Part shown: positions 10,873 to 20,352 of the stretch, in pieces | How the letters are laid out: every line of letters begins with the position of its first letter | How positions within the stretch are numbered: position 1 is the stretch's first letter | Virus record (IMG/VR): IMGVR_UViG_3300023210_000224 | Span: 1 to 23,800 of that record | DNA length: 23,800 nt | Direction: 5' to 3' (one strand) | Source of the DNA: a virus | Notes under the pieces: generated by a model | What the model saw: the letters and a program-made list of their open reading frames with translations, nothing else | Told to the model about the DNA's origin: nothing | Databases searched by the model: none | Translations under genes and position numbers: made by a program

Positions 10873-12000
10873 TTAATAAATCTTTTGGATAATCTTTTGA
10901 ATGACTGCAACTGTTATGGAGTTACCTGCTTGTTGATAAAGGCGAGTATCGGAGCAAACATCAGCAGCTTTAAAAAAAGCATCATCTGGAAAGTCTTGCA
11001 ATCTCCAACATTCCAATGGCGTTAATCTTCTGATTCTTTCTGATTCAATGAAATTATTTTCTATTCTTGCACCCTCTTTTGTGGTAATAGATGTTGCAAC
11101 TCCATCCCCTGCGCCCGGTTGAAATTTAAATCCATTACCCTTTTCTTGGTTTTTGATATGATTTTCTTTAAAGTATTTAACCAATTTATCAGATAAATAA
11201 TATTTGTCATCTACAGAAATAAAACCATCTTCAGCACCACCTTTAAAATAACGAGCAGTTATTGTTGATGAGATTCCATCTAAATTCAAAGGAAAGTCAT
11301 TTTTTGATTGCCTTTTTTTTCTATGGTTTATTATCCATTTTCTCCATTTTTCAGATATTAAGTACTTTGATTCTGGATTGTCTTGCAGCATATCTCTCAA
11401 CTGCAACTGCAACTGCTCTTTAATTGGAAAGCTGAACTCTCTGAAATCTTTGAATCCAACAATGAAGATTCTCTCTCTGTTCTGTGGCACTCCATAATCC
11501 TTCGTGTTGAGTACTTGAGCAATGCAATGATAACCCAATCCATCATCAAACAAATCAATGCTTATCTGTCCGTTCAATGTACCACCACCATTGGTTAAAA
11601 TGTCTGTGATTGTTTGATATGTCCTTCCTTTATCGTGTGACAACAACCCTTTAACATTCTCTAAAATAAAGCATTTCGGTTGATTGATTCTGATGAACTC
11701 TGCAACGTCAAAGAATAGTGTGCCTCTTGCCTCATCAAATCCTTTTCGCTGACCTGCAATACTGAATGACTGACAAGGAAACCCGGCAACATACAAATCC
11801 AATTGCTCAACCTCTGTATGGTCACGTTTTGTAATATCATTATAGAATCTCTTTGGCTCATCGTGAATTGCTAAATAAGATTGCCTTGCATACTTGTCAA
11901 TCTCACAAGCAAATACTGATTCAAAATCAATACCTAAATTCTTTAGTGCTTGTTCTGGCGCACCAATACCACTAAAATCTGTACCTACTTTTAATTTCAT
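10873..12000 (-). CDS. DNA (cytosine-5) methyltransferase
   Basis: This enzyme transfers a methyl group from S-adenosylmethionine to C5 of cytosine. All hallmark motifs are visible in its 375 residues: motif I D-F-S-G-I-G-A-P-E-Q-A-L (8-19), motif IV with the catalytic Cys in GFPCQSFS (C76), motif VI FILENV (111-116), motif VIII PQNRERIF (172-179), motif IX RRLTPLECWRLQDFP (324-338) and motif X QQAGNSI (356-362). The target recognition domain lies between about 190 and 320; its site cannot be read. The leader is A-rich (AAAACAAAACAAA) in the 12 bases after the helicase stop. No cognate restriction gene is present, so the likely job is hiding phage DNA from host restriction. Confidence 0.95.
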   Translation of the reverse strand: MKLKVGTDFSGIGAPEQALKNLGIDFESVFACEIDKYARQSYLAIHDEPKRFYNDITKRDHTEVEQLDLYVAGFPCQSFSIAGQRKGFDEARGTLFFDVAEFIRINQPKCFILENVKGLLSHDKGRTYQTITDILTNGGGTLNGQISIDLFDDGLGYHCIAQVLNTKDYGVPQNRERIFIVGFKDFREFSFPIKEQLQLQLRDMLQDNPESKYLISEKWRKWIINHRKKRQSKNDFPLNLDGISSTITARYFKGGAEDGFISVDDKYYLSDKLVKYFKENHIKNQEKGNGFKFQPGAGDGVATSITTKEGARIENNFIESERIRRLTPLECWRLQDFPDDAFFKAADVCSDTRLYQQAGNSITVAVIQKIIQKIY

Positions 12001-13778: not shown

Positions 13779-14102
13779 TTAATCAAAATTCTTGGAATAA
13801 TTTTCCCTTTCAACCTCTAATTTATAGAATAAAAAAGCACTAAATCCATTGATGTGTGAATCAGTTGGAAAGAAATATCTCCATCCTTTTGATTTGCCTC
13901 TGGCAATATAATAACAGAAAGCAATACCTAATTTACCAGATGATTTTCTAAAATTAATTATTGCAGTATGATCAGATGTTGGCACAATCTCCTCAACCTT
14001 AAATGATTCATTGTTGTAATTACCCTCTCTGTCTTTCATTGAATAACGATTTGCAATTACTTGAGCAAACTCATTCAACTCTTTTGCTATATCACTATTC
14101 AT
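13779..14102 (-). CDS. hypothetical protein (107 aa)
   Basis: The family is not recognised. The 107-residue soluble protein has a helical N-terminus (MNSDIAKELNEFAQVIANRY), a beta-rich centre (FKVEEIVPTSDHTAIINFRK, then IAFCYYIARG) and a conserved-looking KGWRYFFPTDSHINGFSAF near the end. It overlaps the membrane protein gene by ATGA and is followed by the structured terminator, so it ends the operon segment that contains the helicase-methyltransferase. A role linked to that enzyme is possible from position only. Confidence 0.6.
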   Translation of the reverse strand: MNSDIAKELNEFAQVIANRYSMKDREGNYNNESFKVEEIVPTSDHTAIINFRKSSGKLGIAFCYYIARGKSKGWRYFFPTDSHINGFSAFLFYKLEVERENYSKNFD

Positions 14103-14320
14103 GTCGTTGATTTAATTGATTGCCTGTTGAACAACCTTCTGATTGCATAACTTCTCAAAATACTTGCCATCGTAAATACAATAGTAATGATTACATTTTG
14201 ATTTACATTAACTTCAATATCCAAAATTGGATAAATTATAATTTGAATAAAAAATGACATTATCATACCCACGATAGTATTAATAATACTTTCTATTAAA
14301 CTTTTTATTTTAGTCTGCAT
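14099..14320 (-). CDS. small two-helix membrane protein (DUF7220-like)
   Basis: This 73-residue protein has two hydrophobic helices, IVGMIMSFFIQIIIYPIL (about 16-33) and VIITIVFTMASILRSYAI (about 43-60), followed by the basic RRLFNRQ. The pattern 'SLIESIINTIVG...Q...PI' followed by 'FT-x-S-x-x-RSY-x-x-RR-x-F' matches the short phage membrane proteins known as DUF7220, whose function is unknown. The start overlaps the stop of the helicase-methyltransferase (TGATG). It could be a holin-like or superinfection-exclusion protein, but nothing in the sequence decides this. Confidence 0.68.
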   Translation of the reverse strand: MQTKIKSLIESIINTIVGMIMSFFIQIIIYPILDIEVNVNQNVIITIVFTMASILRSYAIRRLFNRQSIKSTT

Positions 14321-16500
14321 CAGAATAGTTGTAATACAGATTGCTTTTCATTAACGCAATCTTTATGATTCTTTGCATTAATCTTGAAATAAGATTCTTT
14401 TAATTCAATTGATATGCTTTTTCTGTTCATTTTTAATGCTTGAAAACCTTCTGAACCAACACCTCCAAATGGTGATAATACTGTTTCACCTTCATTAGAA
14501 TATAAATGTATTATCCTTTCAATCGTATCTAATTGCAAAGGACAAATATGCTTTTCATCATTTCCATCTCTGCCACTCCTGTATTGCAATGTGCGCTTAT
14601 AATCCACATCCATCCATACAGGAGATGCGTATTTTTGCCATAAATCAACAGGTAAATAATCTGCTTTGCTTTCATCTTCTGATTGATGAGTTATTGGAAC
14701 TTCATTATCTCCTTCGTTTCTGAAAAATAAAATATAATCCGGAATACCAACTCTACTCATGCAGCTATCTTTTTTTATTGTTTTATGCAATAATCCTAAT
14801 GCTTTAGTTCTTTGCATTTCAGTTACAGGATTCTTCCATATTGTAGTTTTCGCATGATAAATAAATCCCTCATTTGTAAACCAATCAATCAACATTCCAG
14901 AGAAGTCTCTCAATCCAATGAATCCCTCTTTGCCTTTTTGTATTGGTAAATCCATGCAATGAACTGCACATATTCTTCCTTTTTTCAAAGTTCTTTTTAG
15001 TTCTGGAATAAGATATTTAAAATGCTTTTCAAATTCTTTGTAATTAGACACATTGCCCATATCCTCTGCTTTATCAGAGTATACGTATAACTCTGCGAAA
15101 GGAGGAGAAAACAAAACTAAATCAGCGCAATTATCTTTTAATCTTTTAGATTCTTGAACACAATCACCATTAATACAATGATAGTTTTCTGTTTTGATTT
15201 CTTTATTTTTTACAATTACATTTGACTTATTTAATGTATAATCTGTATTTGATGAATAGTTGCTCATTTCTTTTATCATTGTTTTATGTTTTTGTTCTTT
15301 TTGTAGTATTGTTTTCCTAACATTAATTTGGCTCTCTGGAACTAATAAATGAACCTTGACCTTGTTTAATTGCCCAAATCTATAACATCTCCTTACTGCT
15401 TGATAAAATGCTTCAAATTTAAAATCATAAGATGTAAATACCATATTGCAGCATTGTTGATAGTTCATTCCAAATGATGCTATTGATGTTTTGGTTATTA
15501 AGTTTCTAAATTCATTTTTTGCAAATCCATTTAAATGTTTAGACTTGTACTCTGGATTGTCAGACCCTTGAACATTTATGGAATCATCTAATACTTTTTT
15601 TAATTCATTCCCTTCATCATTTTTTAAAGTCCATATTATCCATTGCTCATTTGAGTTGTTTACTAATTCAATTGTTTTATTAATCCTTGCTTTAAAACTC
15701 CTTTTTAAATCTTTGTGAAGGTCAGTTGCACTAACTGCAACATCACTAAATAATGACATTGTGTTATTTTCGACAGGAATAATATGCTCAATGTATTCAA
15801 TTTCCGGCAGGTTATATCCTTTGGAATCAAACCCTAATGTTTTTGGATTGTCTAATGATATAGACCATGTACATACATATTTCCAAAAATCATCTTGAGC
15901 ATGTTTTCTTAATCTCCATTTTGATGTTTCACCACCATCATGCACAAAATACATTGCTAACATTTCTAAGTAACTCATTGCTCCTAAAAACTCGCTATGC
16001 TGCCCTAATTCCATGTGGTCATTTGGAGATGGAGTTGCCGTACAAGCTAATTTATAAGGATACGATTCAAAAGTATTAATAATTAATTTGCTTAATTTGC
16101 CATCTCTGCCTTTAAGAATGCTGCTCTCATCAAGCACGACACCGGAATAAATACTGCAATCTATATTTTTCAATTGGTCATAATTGGTTATATCAAAAGC
16201 ATCTTGATTAATATTAAACTTTACAGATTCTAATTTAGTCTGATTAACAACTGCTAATGGAGCAAGAACTAATACTTTCTTTTTTGTTTTATTATATACT
16301 TGCTCACACCATGATAGCTGCATTAAAGTTTTGCCTAATCCACAATCTGCAAATATTGCAAATCTGCCTTTTTTTAGTGCTATTTTGATTATATACTTTT
16401 GAAAGTCAAAAAGACTACTGTTTAAATTATCTTGACATATATCGAATCCAGATGATATAAATTTCTTTTTCTTATTTTTTAAAAAATTATCGTATTTCAT
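14320..16500 (-). CDS. SNF2-type helicase fused to a DNA methyltransferase
   Basis: This 726-residue protein has two enzymes in one chain. The N-terminal SF2/SNF2-like ATPase shows Walker A DCGLGKT (52-58), motif II LDESS (123-127, DExx box), motif III TATPS (154-158) and motif VI QAVRRCYRFGQ (367-377). After a linker, residues about 437-710 form an amino-methyltransferase: INGDCVQESKRL, catalytic motif IV SPPF (465-468) and SAM-binding motif I LSPFGGVGSEGFQAL (675-689). Motif IV preceding motif I indicates a beta-type order, and SPPF (rather than DPPY) favours N4-cytosine. A reasonable model is a translocating or remodelling methylase that modifies phage DNA; no nuclease domain is seen. Its leader is AAAACAAAACAA, and its stop overlaps the membrane protein start. 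Confidence 0.88.
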   Translation of the reverse strand: MKYDNFLKNKKKKFISSGFDICQDNLNSSLFDFQKYIIKIALKKGRFAIFADCGLGKTLMQLSWCEQVYNKTKKKVLVLAPLAVVNQTKLESVKFNINQDAFDITNYDQLKNIDCSIYSGVVLDESSILKGRDGKLSKLIINTFESYPYKLACTATPSPNDHMELGQHSEFLGAMSYLEMLAMYFVHDGGETSKWRLRKHAQDDFWKYVCTWSISLDNPKTLGFDSKGYNLPEIEYIEHIIPVENNTMSLFSDVAVSATDLHKDLKRSFKARINKTIELVNNSNEQWIIWTLKNDEGNELKKVLDDSINVQGSDNPEYKSKHLNGFAKNEFRNLITKTSIASFGMNYQQCCNMVFTSYDFKFEAFYQAVRRCYRFGQLNKVKVHLLVPESQINVRKTILQKEQKHKTMIKEMSNYSSNTDYTLNKSNVIVKNKEIKTENYHCINGDCVQESKRLKDNCADLVLFSPPFAELYVYSDKAEDMGNVSNYKEFEKHFKYLIPELKRTLKKGRICAVHCMDLPIQKGKEGFIGLRDFSGMLIDWFTNEGFIYHAKTTIWKNPVTEMQRTKALGLLHKTIKKDSCMSRVGIPDYILFFRNEGDNEVPITHQSEDESKADYLPVDLWQKYASPVWMDVDYKRTLQYRSGRDGNDEKHICPLQLDTIERIIHLYSNEGETVLSPFGGVGSEGFQALKMNRKSISIELKESYFKINAKNHKDCVNEKQSVLQLF

Positions 16501-16513
16501 TTGTTTTGTTTTA

Positions 16514-16909
16514 TTATTTAATTGATTGCCTCTCCTGTTTCAAGTTGCTTATCTTGATGTTGAGATTCTGATTGATATTATTCAACTGTTCCAACTGCAT
16601 TTTGATACGTCTGTAATTATTCTCCGCACGTTTCTCATCTCTGTACTCCGGGCAATTAATATAAAACATTTCTTTTGCTTTGCTGATTGCATCTGATGTA
16701 TCTCTCAAGTATTCGCCTAACTTCTGTTTTCTGGCATACTCTTTTGAGATATACAACTCATGTAACAATCCACAATGCTCTGCAATATAATAGGAATAAA
16801 CACCAATCTCTGTCTGCAATTCAATGAGTTGATTGATGTCAGTTGATGCAGCTTTCACTAAATCAACCAACACCTCAACCCTTGAAATATCAATGAACAA
16901 ATCACGCAT
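16514..16909 (-). CDS. hypothetical helical protein (131 aa)
   Basis: The family is not recognised. The 131-residue protein is nearly all helical. Residues 1-60 have mixed helices with LIELQTEIGVYSYYIAEHCG, the middle is basic (SKEYARKQKLGEYLRD), and residues about 95-131 form a coiled coil (KMQLEQLNNINQNLNIKISN). It starts in an overlap with the stop of the SSB-like gene and ends 13 bases before the helicase-methyltransferase start. Placement in the recombination/replication cluster suggests an accessory role, without direct evidence. Confidence 0.62.
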   Translation of the reverse strand: MRDLFIDISRVEVLVDLVKAASTDINQLIELQTEIGVYSYYIAEHCGLLHELYISKEYARKQKLGEYLRDTSDAISKAKEMFYINCPEYRDEKRAENNYRRIKMQLEQLNNINQNLNIKISNLKQERQSIK

Positions 16910-17274
16910 CAGAAAGGTAATGTATCTGATTCGCTGATGTGCGTTTTTGTAGCATCTTCTAATTCAACAGGTGAATCTTGTTTCAACCCGGTGAACTGCT
17001 CAACATTTGCTTTAAACACTTTCCAAGCAGTTAGATTCACATAGTACTTGCCATTATGCTCATTGCCTCTGATGTTGAAATCAACCTCAACTGCATTGCC
17101 AACTTTGTTGTATTGTAAGAACTGCTCTGCTTTCTCCTTTACAATTTCAAACTTAACGTCTTGAGGATATTTCTCATTTGTCGTTAATATAAACTCCACT
17201 TTTTGGAATCCAGAATCAAACTTAATTAACTCGCCTATCTGCTTGATAGTACCTGTACATTTTAACTCACTCAT
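16909..17274 (-). CDS. DUF3127-like single-strand DNA-binding protein
   Basis: This 121-residue protein has an OB-fold-like beta-rich core (TGTIKQIGELIKFDSGFQKV, then FILTTNEKYPQDVKFEIVK and VGNAVEVDFNIRG) followed by a flexible acidic tail ending ESDTLPF. The core pattern matches the Bacteroidota DUF3127 family. The tail ends like the acidic D-x-L-P-F tip with which bacterial SSB recruits replication and repair enzymes; that tip is strong support for an SSB role. It follows the YqaJ-type exonuclease and annealing-type genes, as expected for a recombination module. The leader is A-rich (AAACAAATAAAATAAATAAA before ATG). Confidence 0.75.
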   Translation of the reverse strand: MSELKCTGTIKQIGELIKFDSGFQKVEFILTTNEKYPQDVKFEIVKEKAEQFLQYNKVGNAVEVDFNIRGNEHNGKYYVNLTAWKVFKANVEQFTGLKQDSPVELEDATKTHISESDTLPF

Positions 17275-17292: not shown

Positions 17293-17970
17293 TTATAAAT
17301 CTTTTAATATGTTATCAATGTAACCTCTGCACTCAATCACTCGCTGATTAATCTGATCAATCACTTCATCATCTCGCTTTATATCAAACACTTTTATTCT
17401 GTATTTGTTAGCAACATTATCGTAATTGTAATGCTTTGCAAATTCATCATAATCAACTGCATCAGAAAACTTGTACTCCTTTTCAACTAATGATTCTGGT
17501 GTGTTCATCAATGTATAAATCAATTTGTAATGCTTTGCGCCTGTCAGATTCATATAACCTTGCGCTTGATAGTAGTAATCCTTATTCGGCACATTGTCAT
17601 AGAATAATGGAAAGGTTGAGAAATCCCATGAATTTTTTACATCAATAACCAAGTCACTATCAGCAAATTTTAAATCCTCACCTTTGATAATTAAATCCGG
17701 TGTGCCTGTCATGTACTCATCTGTGAAAAACATTTCATTCTTAACCAATCCTTTCATCCCTAAATACTGTGAGATAAATTTGATTGATTCATCTTCACAC
17801 ATATTGCCCTTGTCAAGATACTTGGATTGGATTTGCTTTTGTCTGTCGTATATTTTCTCCTTAATCCAGAGATCAAGATATGATTGTGTTGTCTTGCTCA
17901 ACTCACCTTTCTTTCTTGAGTTAGTCATTATCTGCCCAATGGCAGAACATCTGATTTTGAATGGAATCAT
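17293..17970 (-). CDS. YqaJ-type (lambda-exonuclease-like) recombinase exonuclease
   Basis: This 225-residue nuclease is probably the 5'-3' exonuclease half of a phage recombination pair. Core motifs of the PD-(D/E)XK YqaJ family are present: KGNMCEDESI (54-63, catalytic Glu), GTPDLI with D92, LVIDVKNSWDFSTFP with D110 and K112, and YYYQAQGYM (132-140), the Gln motif of the family. The N-terminus (KIRCSAIGQIMTNSR) matches the usual R-x-S-x-x-G-x-I opening of YqaJ proteins. The ATG overlaps the stop of the putative annealing protein by ATGA, which supports joint function. Confidence 0.85.
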   Translation of the reverse strand: MIPFKIRCSAIGQIMTNSRKKGELSKTTQSYLDLWIKEKIYDRQKQIQSKYLDKGNMCEDESIKFISQYLGMKGLVKNEMFFTDEYMTGTPDLIIKGEDLKFADSDLVIDVKNSWDFSTFPLFYDNVPNKDYYYQAQGYMNLTGAKHYKLIYTLMNTPESLVEKEYKFSDAVDYDEFAKHYNYDNVANKYRIKVFDIKRDDEVIDQINQRVIECRGYIDNILKDL

Positions 17971-20064: not shown

Positions 20065-20352
20065 ATGAGAAGAGCAGCCAGAATTGATGCCAATCAGCGA
20101 ATTATTGTAAAGGTATTGAGATTGATGGGTTATTCTGTTGCAATTACATCAGCAGTTGGAAAGGGATTCCCGGACATCGTTGTTGGTACAGGTAAAAAGA
20201 ATTTTCTATTTGAGATTAAAGATGGTAATAAGTACGCATCTCAACAAAAGCTGACAGTTGCAGAGCAAGATTTTTGCGACAATTGGAAAGGTCAGTATCA
20301 TGTGATCACTTGTCTTGATGATGCTATCAAGATAATCAACTCAACAGATTAA
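20065..20352 (+). CDS. VRR-NUC-like nuclease
   Basis: This 95-residue protein is the only plus-strand gene. It is a minimal PD-(D/E)XK nuclease of the VRR-NUC type: N-terminal helix (RRAARIDANQRIIVKVLRLM), then SAVGKGFPDIVVG with the catalytic Asp of G-x-P-D, and FLFEIKDG with the E-x-K pair. Phage VRR-NUC proteins of this size are thought to act as branched-DNA or Holliday-junction nucleases. It is read divergently from the early block and its last 17 bases overlap the end of the opposing gene tail to tail. A plus-strand promoter is unclear; TATATTTA at 20053-20060 resembles a -7 box but lies too close to the ATG for a normal leader. Confidence 0.82.
   Translation: MRRAARIDANQRIIVKVLRLMGYSVAITSAVGKGFPDIVVGTGKKNFLFEIKDGNKYASQQKLTVAEQDFCDNWKGQYHVITCLDDAIKIINSTD

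Follow-up and report, generated by a model that had tools for sequence, protein, structure and literature searches.

A Phage SNF2-Type Motor–Methyltransferase Fusion with a C-Terminal Tail Resembling a Sliding-Clamp-Binding Motif

In this report, we describe a helicase–methylase fusion protein that is encoded in a 23,800-nucleotide stretch of viral DNA (IMG/VR record IMGVR_UViG_3300023210_000224, positions 1 to 23,800; hereafter, the window). In the protein, an SNF2-type motor at the N-terminus is joined to a β-class N6/N4 methyltransferase at the C-terminus. An earlier sequence-only reading of the window had recognized the two enzymes, and the analysis presented here adds a clamp-like motif at the extreme C-terminus. 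This tail appears to be a degenerate version of the motif by which proteins bind the bacterial β-sliding clamp (DnaN). We consider it somewhat probable that the fusion is a methylase of the replication module that would be docked on the clamp by its tail and would methylate the phage DNA against host restriction.

Domain Architecture of the Fusion Protein

The gene and its parts are as follows, with predicted local confidence of the structural model given as pLDDT and the ratio of nonsynonymous to synonymous polymorphism as pN/pS.

14320..16500, minus strand: helicase–methylase fusion, coding sequence of 726 amino acids with an ATG start and a stop codon at 14320-14322; phrog_16 match over residues 23-726 (E = 6.8e-87)
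15256..16500, minus strand: SNF2-type motor, residues 1-415, with GLGKT (54-58), DESS (124-127), TATP (154-157), and QAVRRCYRFGQ (367-377)
15193..15255, minus strand: variable linker, residues 416-436, pLDDT <50 at 423-430, pN/pS 0.489
14341..15192, minus strand: β-class amino-methyltransferase, residues 437-720, with SPPF (motif IV, 465-468), SPFGGVGS (motif I, 676-683), and a final helix (702-720)
14323..14340, minus strand: C-terminal tail SVLQLF, residues 721-726, pLDDT <50 at 723-726, similar to sliding-clamp-binding peptides

The two-enzyme fusion that had been read at 14320-16500 on the minus strand was confirmed as a single open reading frame (ORF) of 726 residues, in which all of the motifs quoted earlier were located. 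The domain search of each half and the structure prediction proposed in the sequence-only reading were both carried out. Pfam returned N6_N4_Mtase, Helicase_C, and ResIII above their cut-offs, and AlphaFold2 recovered an SNF2-like motor fold together with a β-class methylase fold. The full-chain model has a pLDDT of 82.2 and a predicted template modeling score (pTM) of 0.65; given this pTM, the mutual placement of the two halves is less certain than the overall model.

For the motor, the Pfam matches to Helicase_C (27.8 bits, cut-off 23.5) and ResIII (23.7 bits, cut-off 22.5) passed, and those to SNF2-rel_dom (21.7 bits, cut-off 24.9) and DEAD (24.1 bits, cut-off 26) fell below. The best structural matches of the modeled motor were INO80, ISWI, SRCAP, and SNF2h (Z 27-29.5), and the top alignment covered residues 23-416 with 362 residues aligned (Z 29.5, root-mean-square deviation (rmsd) 3.8). 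DEAD-box motors ranked after the SNF2-type motors, with Z of ∼25. Profile matches were obtained to 1z63 (E = 6.6e-16) and ISW1 (E = 2.5e-13). The two RecA lobes and the SNF2-type fold that define a SWI2/SNF2 ATPase were found in the structural matches. A set of 72 family sequences, in which the window protein was added to 71 clusters, has TATP in 71 members and SATP in the remaining one. Motif II reads DESS or DEAS in 70 of them, and the Walker A motif deviates in a few.

The Pfam match to N6_N4_Mtase covers residues 460-708 (E = 3e-19, 70.3 bits, cut-off 26.7), and modeled residues 439-720 align best to the Thermus methylase TTHA0409 (Z 26, rmsd 2.3-2.4). SPPF at 465-468 precedes SPFGGVGS at 676-683, so that motif IV lies ahead of motif I, the order characteristic of β-class amino-methyltransferases. 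An SPP[YFW] catalytic motif is a criterion for N4-cytosine methyltransferases, and motif IV was determined to be SPPF in 54, SIPF in 17, and SVPF in 1 of the 72 family sequences. The solved methyltransferases that were matched include the adenine enzymes DpnA and MboIIA and the cytosine-N4 enzyme 8s9n; a viral fold library returned helicases and the N4-cytosine methyltransferases of Pandoravirus. The predicted target is an exocyclic amino group, probably N4 of cytosine and, less surely, N6 of adenine. The start of the S-adenosylmethionine-binding motif I with SPF instead of DPF had been considered unusual. It is the family norm, since [S/T]PF outnumbers DPF by 43 to 13 in the 56 of the 72 sequences for which the pattern was listed.

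Among 60 close relatives, the motor has a pN/pS of 0.276 and the methylase one of 0.181, values that are rough because synonymous sites are near saturation. Purifying selection thus acts on both halves, and the methylase is the more constrained of the two. The evolutionary distances of the two halves correlate with r = 0.877, a value reached in 0 of 999 permutations; motor and methylase are co-inherited and share a common history. The earlier view that the fusion looks active is borne out to the extent that both halves are probably active, with catalytic motifs that are near-universal in the 72 sequences and low pN/pS.

The C-Terminal Tail

As published, the bacterial motif for clamp binding reads QL[S/D]LF or QxxLF; it frequently lies at the C-terminus, and its positions 1, 4, and 5 weigh most (PMC12309361, PMC4549789; here and below, statements with a PMC number refer to the consulted parts of the source). 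In the fusion protein the final helix stops at residue 720, and residues 723-726 are predicted to be disordered (pLDDT <50 in the AlphaFold2 model). These end residues are conserved and the stretch that precedes them is not: in the clade of the window phage (60 relatives), pN/pS is 0.475 for residues 711-721 vs 0.162 for residues 723-726. The constraint on the tail is about equal to that on the methylase domain (0.181).

To determine how often the motif occurs, we scored the last 25 residues of each of 299 distinct fused proteins, which come from 354 loci and form 71 clusters at 70% identity. The same contigs supplied a background of 2,398 other distinct phage ORFs, unclustered and taken as the longest non-overlapping frames of at least 100 residues, some of which may not be genes. 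A strict form, defined as Q..[LIM][FLI] or QLxLx[FL], was found in 34 of the 71 fusion clusters vs 72 of the 2,398 background ORFs. The corresponding counts were 27/71 vs 17/2,398 for QxxLF and 56/71 vs 148/2,398 for the dipeptide LF, and 63 of the 71 clusters have either the strict form or LF. When a smaller set was used and fusions and background were both clustered, QxxLF was found within the last 20 residues in 17 of 51 fusion clusters vs 10 of 1,350 background clusters, and in 0.75% of shuffled tails. Typical tails outside the clade of the window phage are KQISLF, TQVNLF, SQLSLF, NQISLF, and TQIDLF, with QLSLGF as a longer form; the separate methylase of phage hattifnatt, in which the two halves are split, retains KQETLF. 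The most common tail in the clade of the window phage is STLTLF (25/60).

A second family of methyltransferases has a similar ending. A match in the background set led to an unfused phage methyltransferase of 201 residues (L105:6750-7352) with the catalytic motif DPPY, which belongs to PF01555 and is named "DNA methyltransferase" in PHROGs. The strict clamp motif was found in all 84 complete-tail ORFs of this type, 79 of which have LF, and the endings are QxKLF-like (QQKLF, QTKLF, and QLKLF). These ORFs belong to the 80 loci that ranked closest in a single scan (L234-L313), with identities of ∼60% and more, and are non-independent. Among C5-type methyltransferase ORFs of the same contigs, the clamp motif was found in 0 of 21 distinct tails, and the C5 methyltransferase of the window ends in QKIIQKIY, which is not clamp-like.

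Two further comparisons were made. Of three DinB-type ORFs from two Bacteroidota metagenome-assembled genomes, one has QIHLF and the other two have no such pattern. A relative from a Methanosarcinales virus that ends in QASLFTFG plus seven residues prompted the idea of a PCNA-box suited to an archaeal host. This idea was dropped because the full PCNA-box was found in 0 of 75 related complete-tail ORFs, of which 45 have the strict bacterial motif and 31 have LF.

A search of one open-access library, mainly of titles and the first lines of abstracts, returned no phage or bacterial DNA methyltransferase that is reported to bind the clamp. Within that library, a clamp-like tail is apparently unreported for these enzymes.

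Phage-Encoded Clamps and the QGxL Tails

Some phages that carry the fusion also carry a clamp gene. It directly adjoins the fusion gene in four loci (L044, L078, L174, and L429) and is one gene away in Arthrobacter phage Auxilium. All three Pfam clamp domains were found in L044, L078, and L151 and two in L174; in L429, the N-terminal domain is above the cut-off and the central domain below it. Such genes are rare outside the subgroup of fusions with QGxL[VLM] tails, which was compared with its close relatives (loci L324-L393, records G003-G013 and G028-G045). Within the fetched stretches, clamp genes were found in 17 of 32 loci with QGxL tails, 1 of 129 with the strict form, 4 of 164 with LF, and 0 of 29 with other tails; the clamp of L429, a BLASTP match, falls outside these counts.

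When only records that had not been chosen for a clamp were considered, PF00712 was found in 6 of 8 QGxL[VLM] records, the two without it being L329 and L393, vs 0 of 10 close relatives whose tail is QxxLL, one of these relatives being a split pair (Fisher 0.0015, with kinship ignored and with records that are fragments). A clamp-informed sample in which 13 of 25 records have PF00712 was discounted, as these 13 (11 QGxL records, L044, and L078) were preselected; the other 12 have none. Among the 213 ORFs in 8 stretches of four clamp-bearing records, the tail pattern is confined to the fusion. The polymerase families PF00476 and PF07733 were each found in 0 of the 15 records searched. These results fit a QGxL tail that was re-tuned to the phage's own clamp; the association comes from a single clade and may be one event.

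Distribution of the Fusion among Phages

The motor–methylase fusion is ordinary for phages. Residues 23-726 align to positions 266-922 of the 986-position profile of phrog_16, named "DNA helicase" (E = 6.8e-87). Of 50,697 phage records searched, 355 match the fusion, and in 304 the match extends over at least 80% of it when split pairs are counted; the family analyzed here is a sample from among the matches listed and not the complete family. The hosts include Flavobacterium, Mycobacterium, Arthrobacter, Pseudomonas, Synechococcus, and Gordonia. The annotation "DNA helicase/methylase" is already attached to Mycobacterium phage Gorge gp70 and Arthrobacter phage Auxilium gp73, and for Pacc40 gp60 a methylase domain behind a helicase domain has been described (PMC11855218). 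The coupling of SWI2/SNF2 ATPases to methyltransferases in phages has likewise been described (PMC5512222). The sequence-only reading had offered the fusion as novel unless it proved to be an already characterized, common phage enzyme. With a profile that spans both halves, 304 phage records, and existing descriptions, that novelty is lost as regards annotation and distribution, though not as regards biochemistry.

Gorge gp70, Auxilium gp73, and Pacc40 gp60 have the same two domains in the same order as the window protein, and the match to phrog_16 is nearly full-length for the Gorge protein as well. The Gorge and Auxilium proteins differ from that of the window in sequence (∼28-31% identity), in an insert of ∼70 residues after window residue 622, and in a tail of the type [MVTA]P[ST]LF-D instead of xLxLF. 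In this long form (L071-L074), the insert lies inside the methylase between motifs IV and I. It occupies the expected target-recognition region and therefore suggests a changed DNA specificity. A "hypothetical protein" from Flavobacterium columnare FCV-type phage (Ficleduovirus) is 75.8% identical over window residues 2-726 and shares the tail type (ATLTLF), but FCV-3 (L066) differs from the window in having no DUF7220 or 107-residue protein match within the fetched stretch. In Fancypants and S-LBS1, motor and methylase are encoded by separate adjoining genes, and in hattifnatt two genes, one of them an HNH gene, lie between the halves.

The fusion of Mycobacterium phage Veteran (gp63, L075:2989-6501) is ∼330 residues longer than that of Gorge. 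It is annotated as the large subunit of an anaerobic ribonucleoside reductase, with "DNA helicase" in the note, and this is apparently a misannotation. The additional residues may represent an intein or a hidden-HNH element like those that PMC11855218 describes.

Gene Neighborhood

The following genes accompany the fusion in the window.

14099..14320, minus strand: DUF7220 protein of 73 amino acids (PF23858, E = 1.5e-26), sharing 1 base with the end of the fusion gene
13779..14102, minus strand: 107-residue protein, unmatched in Pfam and PHROG at E 0.05, overlapping the DUF7220 gene by 4 bases
16909..17274, minus strand: DUF3127 protein (PF11325, E = 1.2e-20), upstream neighbor
17293..17970, minus strand: exonuclease of phage recombination type in the same module (phrog_5715 "exonuclease", E = 2.4e-51)
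10873-12000, minus strand: C5-cytosine DNA methyltransferase (PF00145, E = 2.9e-73), downstream of the fusion

The upstream module contains the DUF3127 protein, the exonuclease, and a DnaA-C protein. The PF11325 protein of hattifnatt is annotated as a single-strand DNA binding protein, and the annotated neighbors in several relatives are exonucleases, annealing proteins, single-strand DNA binding proteins, and a DnaA-type protein. Because a C5 methyltransferase is encoded downstream of the fusion, the window phage probably modifies its own DNA in two ways.

The fusion, the DUF7220 protein, and the 107-residue protein had been read as a possible functional cassette (13779-16500). DUF7220 was found in 13 and the 107-residue gene in 4 of 354 loci, window included. 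Of the 353 other loci, 12, on 10 contigs, have a DUF7220 match 0-5 bases past the fusion stop codon; three of these contigs are near-identical to the window phage. DUF7220 thus recurs as a direct neighbor in a few relatives. The 107-residue gene hardly recurs, with 3 of 353 other loci, two being near-identical phages and one having the gene 3.2 kb away. With both genes this scarce, the cassette is conserved only in part and is not treated as one unit. Elsewhere in the window, a small gene at 20065-20352 on the plus strand, opposite to its neighbors, weakly resembles a PD-(D/E)XK nuclease (PDDEXK_9, E = 5.5e-4, below the cut-off).

Proposed Function and Alternatives

We propose that the fusion enzyme would be made together with the replication genes and that its C-terminal peptide would dock it on the DnaN clamp behind the replication fork. 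The SNF2 motor could then carry the enzyme along the fresh duplex, where the methylase half would modify an exocyclic amino group of the phage's own DNA. Clamp docking would couple methylation to synthesis, as Dnmt1 and PCNA do in eukaryotes, and newly made phage DNA would thereby escape host restriction. Self-protection had also been suggested in the sequence-only reading, and modification of the phage DNA is a sensible job for the enzyme.

A number of observations weigh against clamp docking. Neither the strict form nor LF is present in 8 of the 71 clusters. The events are non-independent, as clustering at 50% identity leaves 12 clusters, 7 of them strict, and the main background is unclustered. 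The window pentapeptide VLQLF, like most of its clade, is without Q at position 1: in SVLQLF, L2, L4, and F5 fit the motif and Q1 does not, so that docking in the window phage could be weak or lost. A similar loss of Q with retention of LF is described for DnaE3 polymerases (PMC12309361). Tails of the long-insert clade mostly read [MVTA]P[ST]LF, and a single one of its 21 clusters has the Q; 2 of the 60 close relatives stop ahead of the motif (EEKNST). The QGxL[VLM] tails, found in 32 of the 354 loci, are a poorer match to the motif. Outside the QGxL subgroup, clamp genes were found in 5 of 322 loci within the fetched stretches and in 1 of 26 further, more distant whole records (L124; L080 in that set is the record of L024), and most such phages would therefore have to use the host clamp. 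Finally, the SNF2 half may have its own role in recombination or fork repair.

The fusion could instead be an ordinary self-modification methyltransferase, assisted by its motor and with no link to the clamp, whose LF ending reflects a packing contact, a dimer contact, or drift. The fold and catalytic motifs agree with such an enzyme, as does the window tail without its key Q, and β-class methyltransferases are known to be able to dimerize via C-terminal parts. We regard this explanation as rather unlikely, because the motif occurs far above background in a tail that is predicted to be disordered and lies behind a drifting linker, and because the same motif ends all 84 ORFs of the unfused family.

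A role mainly as a replication or recombination translocase, in fork remodeling or strand exchange, with methylation as a secondary add-on, accords with the PHROG name and with the exonuclease, annealing-protein, and single-strand DNA binding protein genes that often lie beside the fusion. It is quite improbable, however, since the methylase is the more constrained half (pN/pS 0.18 vs 0.28) and is retained through gene splits and the variable insert.

It is very improbable that the fusion is the phage-borne modification half of a defense or superinfection-exclusion system of the Type ISP or DISARM-like kind, which weak partial motor matches to DpdE (3.4e-10), DrmD (2.9e-7), and ZorD (1.9e-5) would favor, given that these span short stretches only, that the gene sits in the replication/recombination module of a tailed phage, and that nuclease domain and motif order argue otherwise. 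Type ISP enzymes have an N-terminal Mrr-like nuclease in the same chain and a γ-class methyltransferase with motif I before motif IV. No nuclease family was matched in the fusion chain by Pfam at E 0.05, the motor begins within ∼20 residues of the N-terminus, and motif IV precedes motif I. The earlier likeness to Type ISP thus does not stand. What is left of that to DISARM is the best DrmD match, weak and limited to residues 309-386; the PADLOC search that gave it covered the fusion, the motor half, and the C5 methyltransferase, and drmA, drmB, and drmC genes were not searched.

Three known systems resemble the proposed clamp-docked methylase in part. The DarB-type dyad likewise combines a SWI2/SNF2 motor and a DNA methyltransferase in one phage protein, for which protection of phage DNA has been proposed. 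It differs in having the methyltransferase before the helicase, a γ-class NPP[YF] motif, and an LPD36 domain, and in being a virion protein (PMC5512222); the window fusion has the helicase first, SPPF, motif IV before motif I, and no further domain matched. Dnmt1 and PCNA (PMC9690074) share the proposed principle, in which a short motif keeps a methylase at the replication clamp. This is an analogy only, as the methyltransferase class, the clamp, and the motif are all different, and the interaction is reported in eukaryotes and inferred here. The plasmid methyltransferases M.EcoGIX and M.BceJIII are also mobile-element enzymes linked to replication and restriction escape. They differ in associating with DNA polymerase I and acting on single strands, with the clamp mentioned only as a possible go-between (PMC7736820).

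Conclusions

The clamp-like tail is the part of this analysis that is worth testing, and this can be done cheaply with a 15-residue peptide and DnaN. We hold in even balance the broader proposal that phages practice replication-coupled methylation, in which the fusions and the unfused methyltransferase family would dock through a C-terminal QxxLF-type peptide that is re-tuned when the phage carries its own clamp, as a prokaryotic counterpart of Dnmt1 and PCNA. In the consulted parts of a review, DNMT1 appears for eukaryotes and no DNA methyltransferase for bacteria (PMC9690074).

The usual picture of phage methyltransferases is one of free enzymes in a race with the nucleases of the host. A tail that docks on the clamp, if true, would explain how the DNA of a fast-replicating phage is modified in time, why the gene is located in the replication module, and why the union of motor and methylase has lasted. 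DNA methyltransferases would then join the clients of the bacterial clamp, and the explanation would extend to many phages beyond that of the window.

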